A stretch of DNA of 33,541 nucleotides from Akkermansia muciniphila (GTDB taxonomy: Bacteria > Verrucomicrobiota > Verrucomicrobiia > Limisphaerales > UBA9464), in assembly GCA_945898055.1 (NCBI GenBank), contig CAMDGV010000047.1, forward strand, positions 1 through 33,541, given 5' to 3'. The stretch's first letter is position 1. Each line of letters starts with the position of its first letter. The notes beneath the pieces were generated by a model, which saw nothing but the letters and a program-made list of their open reading frames with translations, had not been told where the DNA came from and did not search any database. Of this stretch, positions 22,283 through 26,965 are shown piece after piece. A program made the translations under genes and the position numbers.

Positions 22283-23224
22283 ATGGGTTCATTGACCGAG
22301 CCACAAGTGGTTCTCACGCACGAAAGTGATCTCGACGGTTTGGTTTCCGGACTGCTCTTGCAGCGCCTCGCCAAACATGTCTTTGGATCAGATACCCCCC
22401 TAGAGGCCTATCATTACCAAGGCTGGAAACTCCGCTCGCTTTCCGAACGAACCGCTTGGGTCAGTGACTTCACCTTCGAAACCCGCCTCGATAAACCCAA
22501 CTGGCTGATCGTTGATCATCACTCAGGTGAAATAGTCCCAAAACTAGCTAAGCTCATCCATGATCCTCTCAAATCGGCTAGCCGTCTCTGCTATGAAATG
22601 TGCCAACAACACGCCATCGCCACCCCAGAACTAGATCGAATCGTTCACCTGACCGATGTCGGAGATCTCTACACCGAAAGCGACCCCGATTTTATCGAAG
22701 CCTGTGACTACGGAAACTTGGTTAAAGCCTATGGGTTCTGGAATCTTCACACACTGATCGAGGGCGATATCACTCAGTTGCTGAATCATCCACTCCTAGA
22801 GGTGATGCGGGTCAAACGCCGAGTCGAAGACCCCATCGGACTTGAATGTGCACGTCATCGTATCGAAGCGCTTAGCCCGGAGGTCGGATTGGTGAAAACA
22901 ATCATCGGCAATACCAATGCCATTGTTCATCGACTCCTCGAACAAGGCCTTACTACCCACACCGTCCTAGTGACTCTCTTCAAAAAAGGAAATAACGCCT
23001 TTGTGGTCAGCTTCCGCAGTCGCAATGGAGAAGCCCTCAAATTAGCGTCTAAACTGGACGGAGGAGGCCACCCGAATGCCGCCGGGACCACCTTACCAAA
23101 ATCGGTCAATAACCACGAATTAGCCACGGAATATATTCGCCAGCGAATCAATCCGCGCGCTGAACCCTCTGGCCTCACCGGAATGGAAGACCTTTTGGCC
23201 CGCTGGGAAACAGCCCGTAAATAG
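22283..23224 (+). CDS. DHH-family phosphoesterase
   Basis: This 313-aa protein begins with a modified first motif, HESDLDGLVSG, instead of the usual HxDxDG. It then has DFTF and VDHH (about 86-89), and ends with a DHHA1 domain containing GGGHPNAAG. These features place it in the DHH/DHHA1 superfamily, near NrnA-like nano-RNases and related nucleotide phosphodiesterases, with Mn2+ as the likely cofactor. The substrate (short oligonucleotides, pAp or cyclic dinucleotide products) cannot be decided from sequence. It is divergent from fmt. Downstream lies the degenerate region starting at about 23225. Confidence 0.88.
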   Translation: MGSLTEPQVVLTHESDLDGLVSGLLLQRLAKHVFGSDTPLEAYHYQGWKLRSLSERTAWVSDFTFETRLDKPNWLIVDHHSGEIVPKLAKLIHDPLKSASRLCYEMCQQHAIATPELDRIVHLTDVGDLYTESDPDFIEACDYGNLVKAYGFWNLHTLIEGDITQLLNHPLLEVMRVKRRVEDPIGLECARHRIEALSPEVGLVKTIIGNTNAIVHRLLEQGLTTHTVLVTLFKKGNNAFVVSFRSRNGEALKLASKLDGGGHPNAAGTTLPKSVNNHELATEYIRQRINPRAEPSGLTGMEDLLARWETARK

Positions 23225-23312
23225 CAACGCCAGCACTCTCGAAAGCGGAACTACCCCGAGCAGCACTGCACCACTACCGAATAAGCGAGGCCACGTCCTT
23301 AATATCGAATTA

Positions 23313-23679
23313 GAGGCACAGATAGCCTTCCCCTGAGTTTTCACTCTCGGGCCAGACGAGTTTGTTCTCTTTGTTTTTGACCTAGACGATTTCACGCGGT
23401 TTCGCGCCCACCTTCCACCCCGCATCGGCGATGAGGCAGCAATCGTCCTGCAGGGTCTCCGCCCAGTAGTCCATGAGGGGCTGATAGTCGTTGTGGGCAT
23501 AGAGGAGCGGCGCGGTCTTGAAGGTTGGCGAGCAGGTCCTCGGCGAGGCCTGCAATGAGCGGCTAGGGATGACCGTCCTTGGCGAGGCCCTTGAGTTGCG
23601 GGACGGTGGCCGTTTGCCATTTCGTGAAGAGCTTCTTTGCCTTCGTTGTGAAGGCGGTGAACTCGGGGTGGGCGAAATT
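23313..23679 (-). pseudogene. hsdM: C-terminal relic of type I restriction-modification methylase HsdM
   Basis: Minus-strand pieces in two frames reconstruct the HsdM C-terminal region: NFAHPEFTAFTTKAKKLFTK with LKGLAKDGHP, then PLIAGLAEDLLA, then YQPLMDYWAETLQDDCCLIA with GWKVGAKPREIV, then KNKENKLVWPESE. Lesions are visible: a TAG at 23563-23565, one extra base near 23525 shifting the frame between LLA and TFK, and a second TAG at 23382-23384 where Gln is expected. The N-terminal helical domain, the methylase core with NPPF/Y motif, and the hsdS and hsdR genes are absent. The fragment abuts the DruA relic exactly. Confidence 0.75.
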
Positions 23680-24090
23680 GCGAGGTTGGGGAAGACCAGG
23701 AGGCGGGCGTTCAACGACAATTATTCTTCCCCCTGGGAATAATAATCGTCGTCGTACAAGCGGGCGTTGTTGACGGCCCTGTGGCATCGACGGACGCGCG
23801 GGCGCGGGGACAAGCGATCCACTTATCGCGGGCCTTAATGTGGAGGGCGCGGCCGGAAAAGAGGAGGATCGCGACGGATTGATCGTCGATGACGGCGACG
23901 TAGTGGTGGGAGGAGCCTGCAACACTGGGTTGATGGAGGTACTTGGTCCTCCTTAAGGCGACGGTCAAACTTCCTTGCGCTCTTTCGGCTCGATCAGACG
24001 GACCACGACACGGTCAAGAAGGCCGGATTCGGAGAGTATTTTTGCGATGGCCATGACTTCGGGATCACGGGGCGGGATTGAAACTTTGCC
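23680..24090 (-). pseudogene. Relic of a DUF4338 (DruA-like) protein, interrupted
   Basis: Minus-strand segments in several frames match DUF4338, the domain of Druantia DruA and of transposon-associated relatives. They are DPEVMAIAKILSESGLLDRV, then SSHHYVAVIDDQSVAILLF with RALHIKARDKWI, then HRAVNNAR joined to LLVFPNLA. A TGA follows the first block, a frameshift lies between DKWI and VNNAR, and a 48-bp palindromic insertion splits VNNAR from LLVFP. Both ends are missing. Whether it came from an anti-phage system or a transposon passenger cannot be decided. Confidence 0.6.
23703..23768. mobile_element. 48-bp palindromic mini-insertion with 9-bp target duplication
   Basis: GCGGGCGTT occurs at 23703-23711 and again at 23760-23768, flanking 48 bp. 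The inserted segment folds into an 18-bp hairpin (23714-23731 with 23735-23752, 16 of 18 pairs, three-base loop CCT). Removing one repeat plus the insert restores the DUF4338 motif VNNAR-LLVFPN in one frame, which supports a true insertion. The size is far below any autonomous element; it resembles a non-autonomous palindromic unit mobilised in trans. Confidence 0.6.
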
Positions 24091-24239
24091 CAGTCAAAAA
24101 ACTAATCCCAGCCTGCCCGAAGCCAGTAGCTCATTTCAGATGAAGTGCCCCTGCCGAAAGGGCACCCTTGGCAATTTTAGACGCCAATCTGAGTTTTGAA
24201 GTGAAGTCGAAATCCTAAAAGACGAAATTATCCCAAAGG
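24091..24239. other. Short non-coding stretch between the DruA relic and the terminator
   Basis: No gene is seen. A small hairpin, GTGCCC/GGGCAC at 24145-24165, is followed by AATTTTAG on the plus strand. Confidence 0.4.
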
Positions 24240-24267
24240 AAAGGGACCGGAATACTCCGGTCCCTTT
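24240..24267 (-). terminator. Intrinsic terminator of the LamG protein gene
   Basis: AAAGGGACCGGA (24240-24251) and TCCGGTCCCTTT (24256-24267) form a perfect 12-bp stem with a four-base loop. On the minus strand the stem ends CCCTTT and is followed by CCTTT. It lies about 30 bases past the stop of the 889-aa gene. Confidence 0.85.
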
Positions 24268-24295
24268 CGTGAATAAATTGACCGACTTCCGACGG

Positions 24296-26965
24296 TTATC
24301 TTGCGCGGAAGAAAGCTGCTGCGCCCGTGGTTGTAACCGGGTAGGGACTCGCTGCACCGGTTACGTCGGTAAAGGGTCCTTTAATACCACTCGCTGTCTG
24401 GAGAGTGCCCGTGTAGGTAATTGAAGCCCCGCTCGCCGTTTTCACGACAGTTAATGGCCCGGGAGTAACCGGGGTGGAACCGCCACTCAGGCCTCGAATA
24501 ATCATGCCGCTGACGCCGCCGGAATTATCCTCCATCTCAGCAAACCATATATACTCACCGGCCTTGATATCTAAGGTAACGGTTCTTGGTTGCCCCAACG
24601 GTAACACATCCCCCGCATCGTTTTTCCCAGCATAATTGCCTGTGTTGGATTCCGCTGGCTCTTTTAAGCCTTTAATATCATCCGCCCAAATCTTGCCTGA
24701 TCTTGAGGCGTCGGTAGTGCGACCTTCAAAGACTGTTACTTTGTACTTCCCAGCATTTAGGCCACCAAAACGCATCAGAGTCTCGCTCCCAGTTGTGTCC
24801 GGATTGCGATAAAGGTAGTCATCTTTAACTGTCGAGGGAACGAGGATACCGTCATACATAACGGCAATTCCTTCTTTCGTGGGGTTGTTGGCAGTCTGCC
24901 CAAGTGCCGGAGGGAACTGGTTAGCATCGTTTTGTGCCACATTATTCAGCATCGTGAGCGTGACATTCTTGTTATTATCCTTGGAGTAATCATTTAGTTT
25001 CCAAGTCACTTCCGTGGCGGTGGCATTAGCCTTACCCTCGATGCTTGCCGTGCCAAGAACAACATTCGCGTTGGGTGCGTCAAAGGTCCATGTGGGGATG
25101 ACGTTCCAATCGGCCAAAGGAGCAGGAGCTTCGGTGTCCTCCCCAGCGTCATTCTTAACTACCCTTTCATTTTCAGATTGGCCGAAATCAATCTTGAACA
25201 GGCCCTTTGAATCTGCCGGATCGATGACAGAGCGGATGATCATGCCGCTGATGCCGCCTGAATTATCCTCTATTTCCGCAAACCAGAGATAGTCACCGGC
25301 GTTGATTTTGACGGACACAGTTCGAGGTTGTCCGTCGAGAAGAATTTCTCCAGCGTCGTTCTTTCCTGCGTAGTTGCCAGTGTTCGCTTCCGCTGGCTCT
25401 TTTGCCCCCTTCACATCATCCACCCAGACCTTTCCATACCTTCCGGAGTCCGTCGTGCGGCCTTCAAAAACCGTCACATTATATGTTCCAGGATCAAGAT
25501 TGGCTATCCGCATCAGACTTTCGGAACCGGCCGCATCAGGAGCCCGATAGAGATAATCGTCTTTGACAACAAAAGGAACTCTGACGCCGTCGTAGACCAC
25601 TTCCCTGCCCTCTTTCGTCGGGTTGTTGGCAGTCATGCCCAGCATGTAGGCCGGCGCATCTGGAGTTAGTTTCTCAGCCAGAGTTTTATTATCAAAAATC
25701 GTCAGCGTTACATTATCATTTGGATTCGAAGAAATGTCCTTCAGTTTCCATGTGACAGAGGTTCCATCAGCGCTAGCCACACCAGTGATACTGGCAGAAT
25801 CGGGGGCTACGTTTGCATTTGGATCTGCGAAGGTCCAAGTCGGAATGACAACCCAATCGATCAAGGCAGCGGGAGGTCCTACTTCAGTTCCATCGGCTTT
25901 CAATAGCGGATTTCCCTCCGCATCCTTAGGCGACCGTTCATTTTCAGACTGACCGAAATCGATCTTGAAGAGACTTCCGTTCAATCGGGCCGTTCCTGGG
26001 GGAATGGGTGCGCCAAGCGCCGCCGCCCAAAGGGACGCCACTTCGGCGTCCGTGAGCGCCCGATTGAGCCAGATCGCCATTTCGTCCTGGGCACCGGAGT
26101 GAGTTTGGGGCGTCGTCGGGTCCGCGCCGCGACCGCCGATTTTCGCTAGGCCAGTATCGACGCCCCAGCCTGTGGCATCGGGTTGGAGGTTGGCGGTCCG
26201 GTTGACCCCATTGATCCAGACCTTGAAATTCGACGCGCGTTCGGGGCCAGTCGCCCCGTGGGTGGAGGCCACGACGTGGAACCATCCGCTGTTCGGGTCG
26301 ATCAACCGGCGGTCATGGGCGCTATTGTCTTCGAGATAGAGAGTTCGTTCGGCATTGACGCCGGTCGAAGCCGGGTCGACGGCCATGACCAGACCGTTGT
26401 TGCCGCAGTCGATCTGAAAACTCTTCGTCGGGTCCGTGAGATTATTCGAGAAGAGGCGGTCGCCGCCCTGAGAAGGCCCTGCTTTCATGAAAAAGGCCAC
26501 GGTCATGTCATTGGCGCCATAGGCCGCGCCAGGGCCGAGGATGATGTGCCCTGAGTTGTTGCTGTAGTGGGCGAGGTTCGCCACGCCCCCAACTCCAGGC
26601 ACTAAGATGTCCCCGAAAACCTCGAGCGGACCGGGACCGCCGACCATCGCCGGGCCGTTGACGTAATCTCCGTTGAAAGAACTGGGCCCGACCGCACGGC
26701 CCATACTGTCGATGGCGCCGCCGGCGGTGGACGTATTGTTCAGTTGGTAATAGTAAGTCGGACTCAGTTTTATCACCGTATCCTGGTAGAGTGCGGCTTC
26801 CGCGGGTTGAGTTGCGACGGCAAGGAGTGCGCCAAGCACACTAGCGGCCACCGAAGGCCGGCGGAGACTGTTCAGGAAGGATCCTGATAGGAATCTGCTT
26901 TTTGACGCGGAGGGTAAATTCCAAACGGGAGATTTGCGTGGGTTACGGCAACGATAAGTTTTCAT
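24296..26965 (-). CDS. Large secreted LamG-domain protein with two ~255-aa internal repeats
   Basis: This 889-aa protein has a long basic N-terminus and signal peptide (hydrophobic about 38-57, ending PAEAAL). The LamG/concanavalin-like domain (about 60-320) includes NDMTVAFFMKAG, GWFHVVAS, FKVWINGVNR and the ending ALTDAEVASLWAAALG. Two homologous modules follow, starting LFKIDFGQSENER at about 332 and 589. Each contains YDGVxVP, KDDYLYR, VTVFEGRTTD and EDNSGG-SGMIIR. They look like beta-sandwich carbohydrate- or surface-binding modules, but the family is not recognised. The C-terminus (GPFTDVTGAASPY, ending FFRAR) is a type frequent in verrucomicrobial exported proteins. The LamG half is clearly richer in GC than the repeat half. 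A strong terminator follows. Confidence 0.88.
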   Translation of the reverse strand: MKTYRCRNPRKSPVWNLPSASKSRFLSGSFLNSLRRPSVAASVLGALLAVATQPAEAALYQDTVIKLSPTYYYQLNNTSTAGGAIDSMGRAVGPSSFNGDYVNGPAMVGGPGPLEVFGDILVPGVGGVANLAHYSNNSGHIILGPGAAYGANDMTVAFFMKAGPSQGGDRLFSNNLTDPTKSFQIDCGNNGLVMAVDPASTGVNAERTLYLEDNSAHDRRLIDPNSGWFHVVASTHGATGPERASNFKVWINGVNRTANLQPDATGWGVDTGLAKIGGRGADPTTPQTHSGAQDEMAIWLNRALTDAEVASLWAAALGAPIPPGTARLNGSLFKIDFGQSENERSPKDAEGNPLLKADGTEVGPPAALIDWVVIPTWTFADPNANVAPDSASITGVASADGTSVTWKLKDISSNPNDNVTLTIFDNKTLAEKLTPDAPAYMLGMTANNPTKEGREVVYDGVRVPFVVKDDYLYRAPDAAGSESLMRIANLDPGTYNVTVFEGRTTDSGRYGKVWVDDVKGAKEPAEANTGNYAGKNDAGEILLDGQPRTVSVKINAGDYLWFAEIEDNSGGISGMIIRSVIDPADSKGLFKIDFGQSENERVVKNDAGEDTEAPAPLADWNVIPTWTFDAPNANVVLGTASIEGKANATATEVTWKLNDYSKDNNKNVTLTMLNNVAQNDANQFPPALGQTANNPTKEGIAVMYDGILVPSTVKDDYLYRNPDTTGSETLMRFGGLNAGKYKVTVFEGRTTDASRSGKIWADDIKGLKEPAESNTGNYAGKNDAGDVLPLGQPRTVTLDIKAGEYIWFAEMEDNSGGVSGMIIRGLSGGSTPVTPGPLTVVKTASGASITYTGTLQTASGIKGPFTDVTGAASPYPVTTTGAAAFFRAR
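26883..26914 (-). repeat. Dispersed 32-bp repeat, copy 3 (inside the LamG gene leader)
   Basis: On the minus strand this reads CCCTCCGCGTCAAAAAGCAG and then ATTCCTATCAGG. It differs from the copy at 33269-33300 at 4 of 32 positions, and the TTTA before it is also shared. Here it is translated as PSASKSRFLS within the N-terminal region of the 889-aa protein. Confidence 0.65.

Follow-up and report, generated by a model that had tools for sequence, protein, structure and literature searches.

A 51-bp palindromic mini-element with the ends of a resident IS21-family transposon in a decayed DruA gene of Akkermansia muciniphila

An insertion of 51 bp (positions 23708 to 23758, plus strand) in a decayed DruA/DUF4338 relic of the window, i.e., the whole stretch of 33,541 nucleotides analyzed here, carries the two ends of a resident IS21-family transposon; the genome contains 23 full copies of this element, the one in the window included. 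On balance, we favor the view that this mini-element is an IS21-derived MITE, which lost the interior of the IS and reached new sites through IstA/IstB supplied in trans. Like MITEs, it is short and noncoding and has inverted ends, a target duplication, many copies, and ends that match IS tips; the element is ordinary in kind and unusual in its size and its single repeat per end. The original prediction of a very small palindromic, nonautonomous insertion in a DUF4338 relic is borne out by the 23 copies, the 6-bp duplications, and the empty sites, and a transposase with the same ends is present as well, whereas the proposed 9-bp duplication and the "unidentified transposase" did not stand.

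The mini-element is a near-palindrome of two 24-bp arms that are separated by 3 bp and contain no gene. In the window, the left arm (23708 to 23731, plus strand) is of the L1 type, i.e., the outermost left repeat of the resident IS21 element as recognized by pattern search (IS left end, C21:259-282), and the right arm (23735 to 23758, minus strand) is of the R1 type, the outermost right repeat (IS right end, C36:1711-1734). The central CCT spacer (23732 to 23734, plus strand) is common to 17 of the 23 full copies, and its reverse complement AGG occurs in one more. The first base of the left arm is C instead of T, and the right arm has the TGTACG variant, the sole such case among the 23 full copies. 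These older arm variants mark the copy in the window as old. It is flanked by a 6-bp target duplication, GGCGGG at 23702 to 23707 and AGCGGG at 23759 to 23764, which match at five of six positions.

The 9-bp direct repeats around 48 bp that had been described earlier do exist: GCGGGCGTT is found perfectly at 23703 to 23711 and at 23760 to 23768, and the 48 bp in between contain an inverted repeat. The left of the two repeats, however, is composed of five target bases and the first four bases of the element, whereas the right one consists purely of target bases. Since base 1 of this copy is C, the CGTT of the element matches by chance the target CGTT next to the right duplication, and a 6-bp duplication therefore looks like one of 9 bp. 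Removal of 51 + 6 bp and removal of 48 + 9 bp rebuild the identical sequence, so that the true unit is invisible from a single copy.

The insertion is located in a relic that extends approximately from 23382 to 24032 on the minus strand. When 57 bp are excised, VNNAR and LLVFPN become contiguous in a single frame, exactly as had been proposed. The motif is uninterrupted in three of the eight DruA/DUF4338 loci examined, as NNTRFLI (L086), QNRRLLI (L087), and NNARFLI (L088), and the motif search gave no match in the other five; arms of the element occur in one of the eight loci (L094), outside the DruA match. A Pfam search of the two pieces of the relic gave no hit, and the window is absent from the 10 PF14236 matches of the genome. 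The host is labeled DruA because the L088 fragment matched the window region in tblastn (E value of 3e-6) and because the downstream flank is 67% identical at the DNA level to C84:18212-18455, a stretch that overlaps an above-cutoff PF14236 match. To judge from these comparisons, the relic is badly decayed and the insertion landed in a DruA pseudogene. A protein-level role of the mini-element was considered and rejected; 18 of the 23 copies keep the frame by their length, but the host frames look truncated and no supporting evidence was found.

The genome of the window (4.63 Mb, 136 contigs, 95% complete) yielded 51 matches in a DNA search, in which 40 of 55 first-look candidates were scored. 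A 24-base arm pattern with up to three mismatches gave 72 matches, compared to none for the reversed-pattern control, and 46 of them form 23 back-to-back pairs of 49 to 55 bp, 18 being 51 bp long. The remaining 26 matches are unpaired and comprise 22 single arms (10 left, 12 right), three arms with a second inner repeat (C21:259, C21:665, and C36:1711), and a weak one with three mismatches on C7. The genome search thus uncovered the further copies that the original prediction called for. Seven of the 23 full copies are letter-for-letter identical (TGTACAACGACAATTATTCTTCCC-CCT-GGGAATAATAATCGTCGTTGTACA, the commonest form), and their two arms have the sequences of the IS tips at C21:259 and C36:1711; most mini-elements share the arm variants of the present IS, and in L028 both arms are of the right type. 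The copy numbers were taken from the arm pattern because the best-match regular expression skips weaker sites (C19:874, C11:84012, and C21:665 were missed); the latter was used for the order-wide pattern, the IS ends, the empty sites, the looser search, and the ends in the sister genome G001. The search covered fragments of about 24 bp or more with up to three mismatches. Two mini-elements are located in open frames (L030, 815 to 1969; L041, 523 to 1413) with RHS-core and dihydroorotate-dehydrogenase hits downstream of the mini-element, and there 51 + 6 bp preserves the frame; another one ends an AbiEii-like hit.

With the element register set to TGT...ACA, perfect 6-bp flanking repeats were present in 11 of the 23 full copies, and 13 have them with at most one mismatch, including the window copy. 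Perfect repeats of 4, 5, 7, 8, or 9 bp were found in none of the 23, and swapping the flanks between copies gave an expectation of 0.000 at 6 bp. Moreover, eight paralogous empty sites are available for three copies (six for L029, one each for L037 and L036), and their flanks overlap by six bases, five of them as aligned and three after extension by one or two unaligned bases. The true duplication is hence 6 bp rather than 9 bp and the element is 51 bp rather than 48 bp long, which excludes a 9-bp-duplicating transposase. Ten full copies lack a duplication. They may reflect deletions at insertion, by analogy with those reported for the IS21 member ISPve1 (PMC3281130); an origin from exchanges between copies was rejected, with no exact matching 6-mers. 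The hairpin described as 18 bp proved to have fewer pairs, as DNA folding gives 16 of them, two 1x1 mismatches, and a loop of 3 nt, and its energy is unremarkable (z score of -1.65; 13 of 200 shuffled sequences fold equally well). Such an energy would suit a chance repeat, an ordinary terminator, or a REP without any insertion, but this reading is refuted by the 23 copies, the 6-bp duplications, and the empty sites, and an Rfam search of 22800 to 24800 gave no match, so that we give it virtually no weight.

The parent of the mini-element is represented by two IS ends. The right end (C36:1711-1734) is followed by a second repeat, a frame of 520 amino acids, and the start of the next frame, while the left end (C21:259-282) likewise comes with a second repeat and with the terminal part of a frame. 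The 520-amino-acid protein is an IS21-type IstA (NF033546 transpos_IS21, 183.2 bits with a cutoff of 160; PF22483 [Mu-transpos_C_2], 46.5 with a cutoff of 27; PF00665 [rve], 22.4 and below the cutoff of 32.6), and its nearest PDB chains, 8q4d and 8b4h, are both IS5376 IstA. The frame end beside the left tip is the C terminus of IstB (PF01695, 24.9 bits with a cutoff of 24.1); for the frame start at C36, IstB-type models are weak (best E value of 0.12), and the middle of IstB is absent from the assembly. The full-length istA directly inside the matching tip is the transposase gene with the same terminal sequence that had been anticipated, and the ends of the mini-element can be assigned to a resident, IstA-encoding IS21-family element.

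The IS is located in GGGG-CAGGCT-ACC, with CAGGCT on the right and CAGCT, one base short, on the left. We infer that both ends belong to one insertion with a duplicated CAGGCT that probably lost one base on the left, because the same tandem repeat lies at both ends and CAGGCT fits. The tandem repeat has a unit like gaactatggggcaggctacctattcctacagt and lies outside both IS ends (C21, L066 about 285 to 500; C36, L069 about 1735 to 2325). One full-length istA and a weak match at C84 were detected in the genome, in which a collapse of repeats in the assembly could hide further IS copies. The second inner repeat is present at each end of the parent and absent from the mini-element, and the inner edges of the left and right IS ends have a short CT in common. 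In the sister genome G001, six left-type tips were found, one of which precedes the start of an istA, as well as five right tips that have a second repeat; these tips lie near contig edges, and no pairing of left and right ends by a duplication was seen. A search for close IstA relatives in GTDB species gave four pattern stretches, none of which was confirmed.

In the favored scenario, everything between the two outermost IstA repeats of the resident transposon would have been lost, so that the left IS end contributes 25 bp and the right one 26 bp to a unit of 51 bp, and IstA/IstB would act in trans and insert the mini-element with a 6-bp stagger. We infer that the IstA/IstB of the resident IS is the agent and the 51-bp unit itself the donor. 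This is in line with the 23 full copies of 49 to 55 bp, seven of them with arms equal to the IS tips, with the 6-bp duplications and the 6-bp overlap at the eight paralogous empty sites, with the IS21-type IstA and the IstB C terminus beside the left tip, with the flanks of the IS itself (CAGGCT on the right and CAGCT on the left), and with the ratio of one full-length istA to 23 mini-elements. On the other hand, the middle of IstB is missing and its start is weak, the IS ends of G001 are not paired by a duplication, 10 of the 23 copies lack a duplication, and 51 bp leaves scant DNA for the pairing of two ends. IS5376 IstA has been described to need two complete repeats per precleaved end for integration in vitro (PMC10122671), and the mini-element has one; either this requirement is different here, or the donor is something other than the 51-mer.

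Relatives provide evidence on both sides. Two arm cores with a gap of 12 to 26 nt were found in 9 of 320 genomes of the order, namely, at 21 places in the genome of the window and, in eight other genomes, at one or two places each, where the centers differ; the pairs of G005 and G008 are located in similar flanks, and a looser search gave up to three pairs per genome (G005). A design of about 50 bp recurs in other genera and families, with differing arms and centers. None of the other genomes examined showed an amplification (one to three pairs per genome), which together with the differing centers speaks against the MITE reading, as does the scarcity of duplications: among 20 pairs from relatives, a perfect 6-bp duplication was found in three (G006, G010 C130, and G014 C72), a perfect 7-bp duplication in one (G089 C39), and none of 4 to 9 bp in 16. 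In its favor is a longer form of 80 to 86 bp with one-repeat ends and a common filler. Three species have this form, its flanks differ, and one case shows a perfect 6-bp duplication, so that one-repeat ends seem to be enough. It is mainly for this form that movement in trans is placed first. The filler measures about 35 nt (CCCGCCTCCGGTAACC...GAGGCAATGCG) and was located at L083 16482 to 16516 (C87), L053, L046, L062, and L177, as well as alone in G010 C152.

All 22 single arms depart from the sequence of the mini-element 0 to 4 nt past the arm, i.e., at the center of the palindrome, and they have the same inner limit of 25/26 bp as the mini-elements within a few bases. A 27-nt center pattern with up to three mismatches was found at 18 places, every one inside a full copy, and no copy broken elsewhere than at the center was seen at these limits. 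Examples of 24 to 26 bp are located at C73:12770, C4:110454, and C13:67790. For the two arms that were compared with relatives, those on C73 and C4, the match to the relatives covers the inner side as far as the arm but not the outer side, so that these arms represent junctions of unrelated DNA. The arm on C4 may be older than the species, since G014 has a left arm downstream of the same gene. The TGTACG tip is present in 9 of 13 right single arms versus 1 of 23 full copies (Fisher test, 6.6e-5) and the TGTT tip in 9 of 11 left single arms versus 7 of 23 full copies (0.009), each single-arm set including one intact IS end. Both are the tips of the IS of G001, and the single arms therefore look like an older generation than the full copies.

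The single arms are neither the distant ends of one larger element nor halves of mini-elements split by an insertion at the center, as no left/right pair with outer 6-mers of at most one mismatch was found among the 10 left and 12 right arms. Either a breakage of the palindrome at its center or a joining of lone tips would yield arms that end at the center. On C87, the filler of the 80- to 86-bp form follows an arm and stops exactly where the right arm would start; this case strains the breakage view. Cleavage by SbcCD and joining by Ku is unsupported, as neither SbcD nor Ku was matched in the 95%-complete genome (in controls, SbcD was detected in 13 of 14 genomes and Ku in one of 14). The same sequence of about 95 bp borders on arms of the element in two species, on a left arm at L045 1086 to 1207 (C84) and on a right arm at L182 89 to 206 (G014 C113), and an IS481/IS21-like rve open reading frame (ORF) lies beside the C84 arm of L045.

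The common inner limit of single arms and mini-elements is what would be expected if the mini-element never moved. IstA would then insert both tips of the IS with a 6-bp stagger, and the DNA between them would be trimmed to the outermost repeats; tips of 25 and 26 bp sealed to each other would leave a 51-bp scar with a duplication, and a tip sealed to other DNA a single arm. Most mini-elements have the arm variants of the present IS, as if remade from it, which fits this reading better than the MITE reading, and so does the recurrence of the design of about 50 bp in other genera and families, where each genome has one to three cases and the centers differ. IstA is described to join L + L or R + R in vitro as well, which would suit the L028 copy with its two right-type arms, and concerted integration of short ends linearizes the target in vitro (PMC10122671). 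Against it stand the filler that the 80- to 86-bp form has in common in three species, the older variants in single arms than in full copies, and the lack of a Ku match in the genome. Furthermore, we know of no agent that cuts at the inner limit of the outermost repeat. Capture of the ends in situ is a rather unlikely origin of the mini-elements. With the same low probability, the 51-bp scars and the lone 25/26-bp tips would be fixed-length footprints of the IS21 integration complex, formed anew in many lineages and marking rearrangement breakpoints, and the mini-elements fossils of failed insertions.

Two further origins were weighed against the MITE reading. In the nearly precise excision of Tn10, about 50 bp of transposon ends remain together with the duplication. 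Likewise, a slippage across the inverted tips of full IS21 elements with 6-bp duplications could have removed the interior, with about 50 bp remaining; the arms follow the IS, the inner edges of the IS ends have the short CT in common, and the design recurs in other genomes. However, the 23 remnants contrast with a single full istA and a single additional left-end relic that has a second repeat, single arms are not predicted, and the filler is common to the 80- to 86-bp mini-elements, which makes this origin less probable still. Here, unlike for the Tn10 remnants, many copies, one full IS, and single arms are observed. A different transposase with a 6-bp stagger that recognizes the same tips is very improbable. 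A candidate would be the IS481/IS21-like ORF C84:1-1107, which adjoins a left single arm and has rve-type hits, all below the cutoff, but the contig begins inside this ORF, no second arm is present there, and the IS21 element has its full-length istA directly inside the matching tip.

Among known systems, the mini-element resembles MITEPsy1, which is 100 nt long and has a duplication of 4 nt (PMC3189936), in being short and without a gene, with the ends of a resident IS, a duplication, and several copies; it differs in that it is roughly half as long, has hardly any interior, carries ends of the IS21 type, and is flanked by a 6-bp duplication. The full element has the IstA type and the L1/L2 and R1/R2 repeats described for IS5376 and its IS21 relatives, and the IS21 family and the mini-element both have a target duplication of a few base pairs (PMC10122671, PMC11208146). 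The mini-element, in contrast, has L1 and R1 alone, no gene, and a duplication of 6 bp instead of the 5 bp given for IS5376 (PMC10122671). REP palindromes are likewise tens of bases long, palindromic, and interspersed, but they have been linked to tyrosine transposases (PMC2817692, PMC3733652), whereas the mini-element has 6-bp duplications and IS21 ends. No description of an IS21-derived MITE was found among the titles and abstract openings examined in the open-license PMC literature.

If the 51-bp unit with one repeat per end does move, the two-repeat requirement of IS5376 would not hold in general, and studies of the mechanism would gain a very small DNA transposon. If it is immobile, fixed-length IS21 scars and lone tips would provide a countable trace of failed transposition and genome breakage. 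Either way, a short hairpin that might be mistaken for a terminator or a REP can receive its correct annotation.
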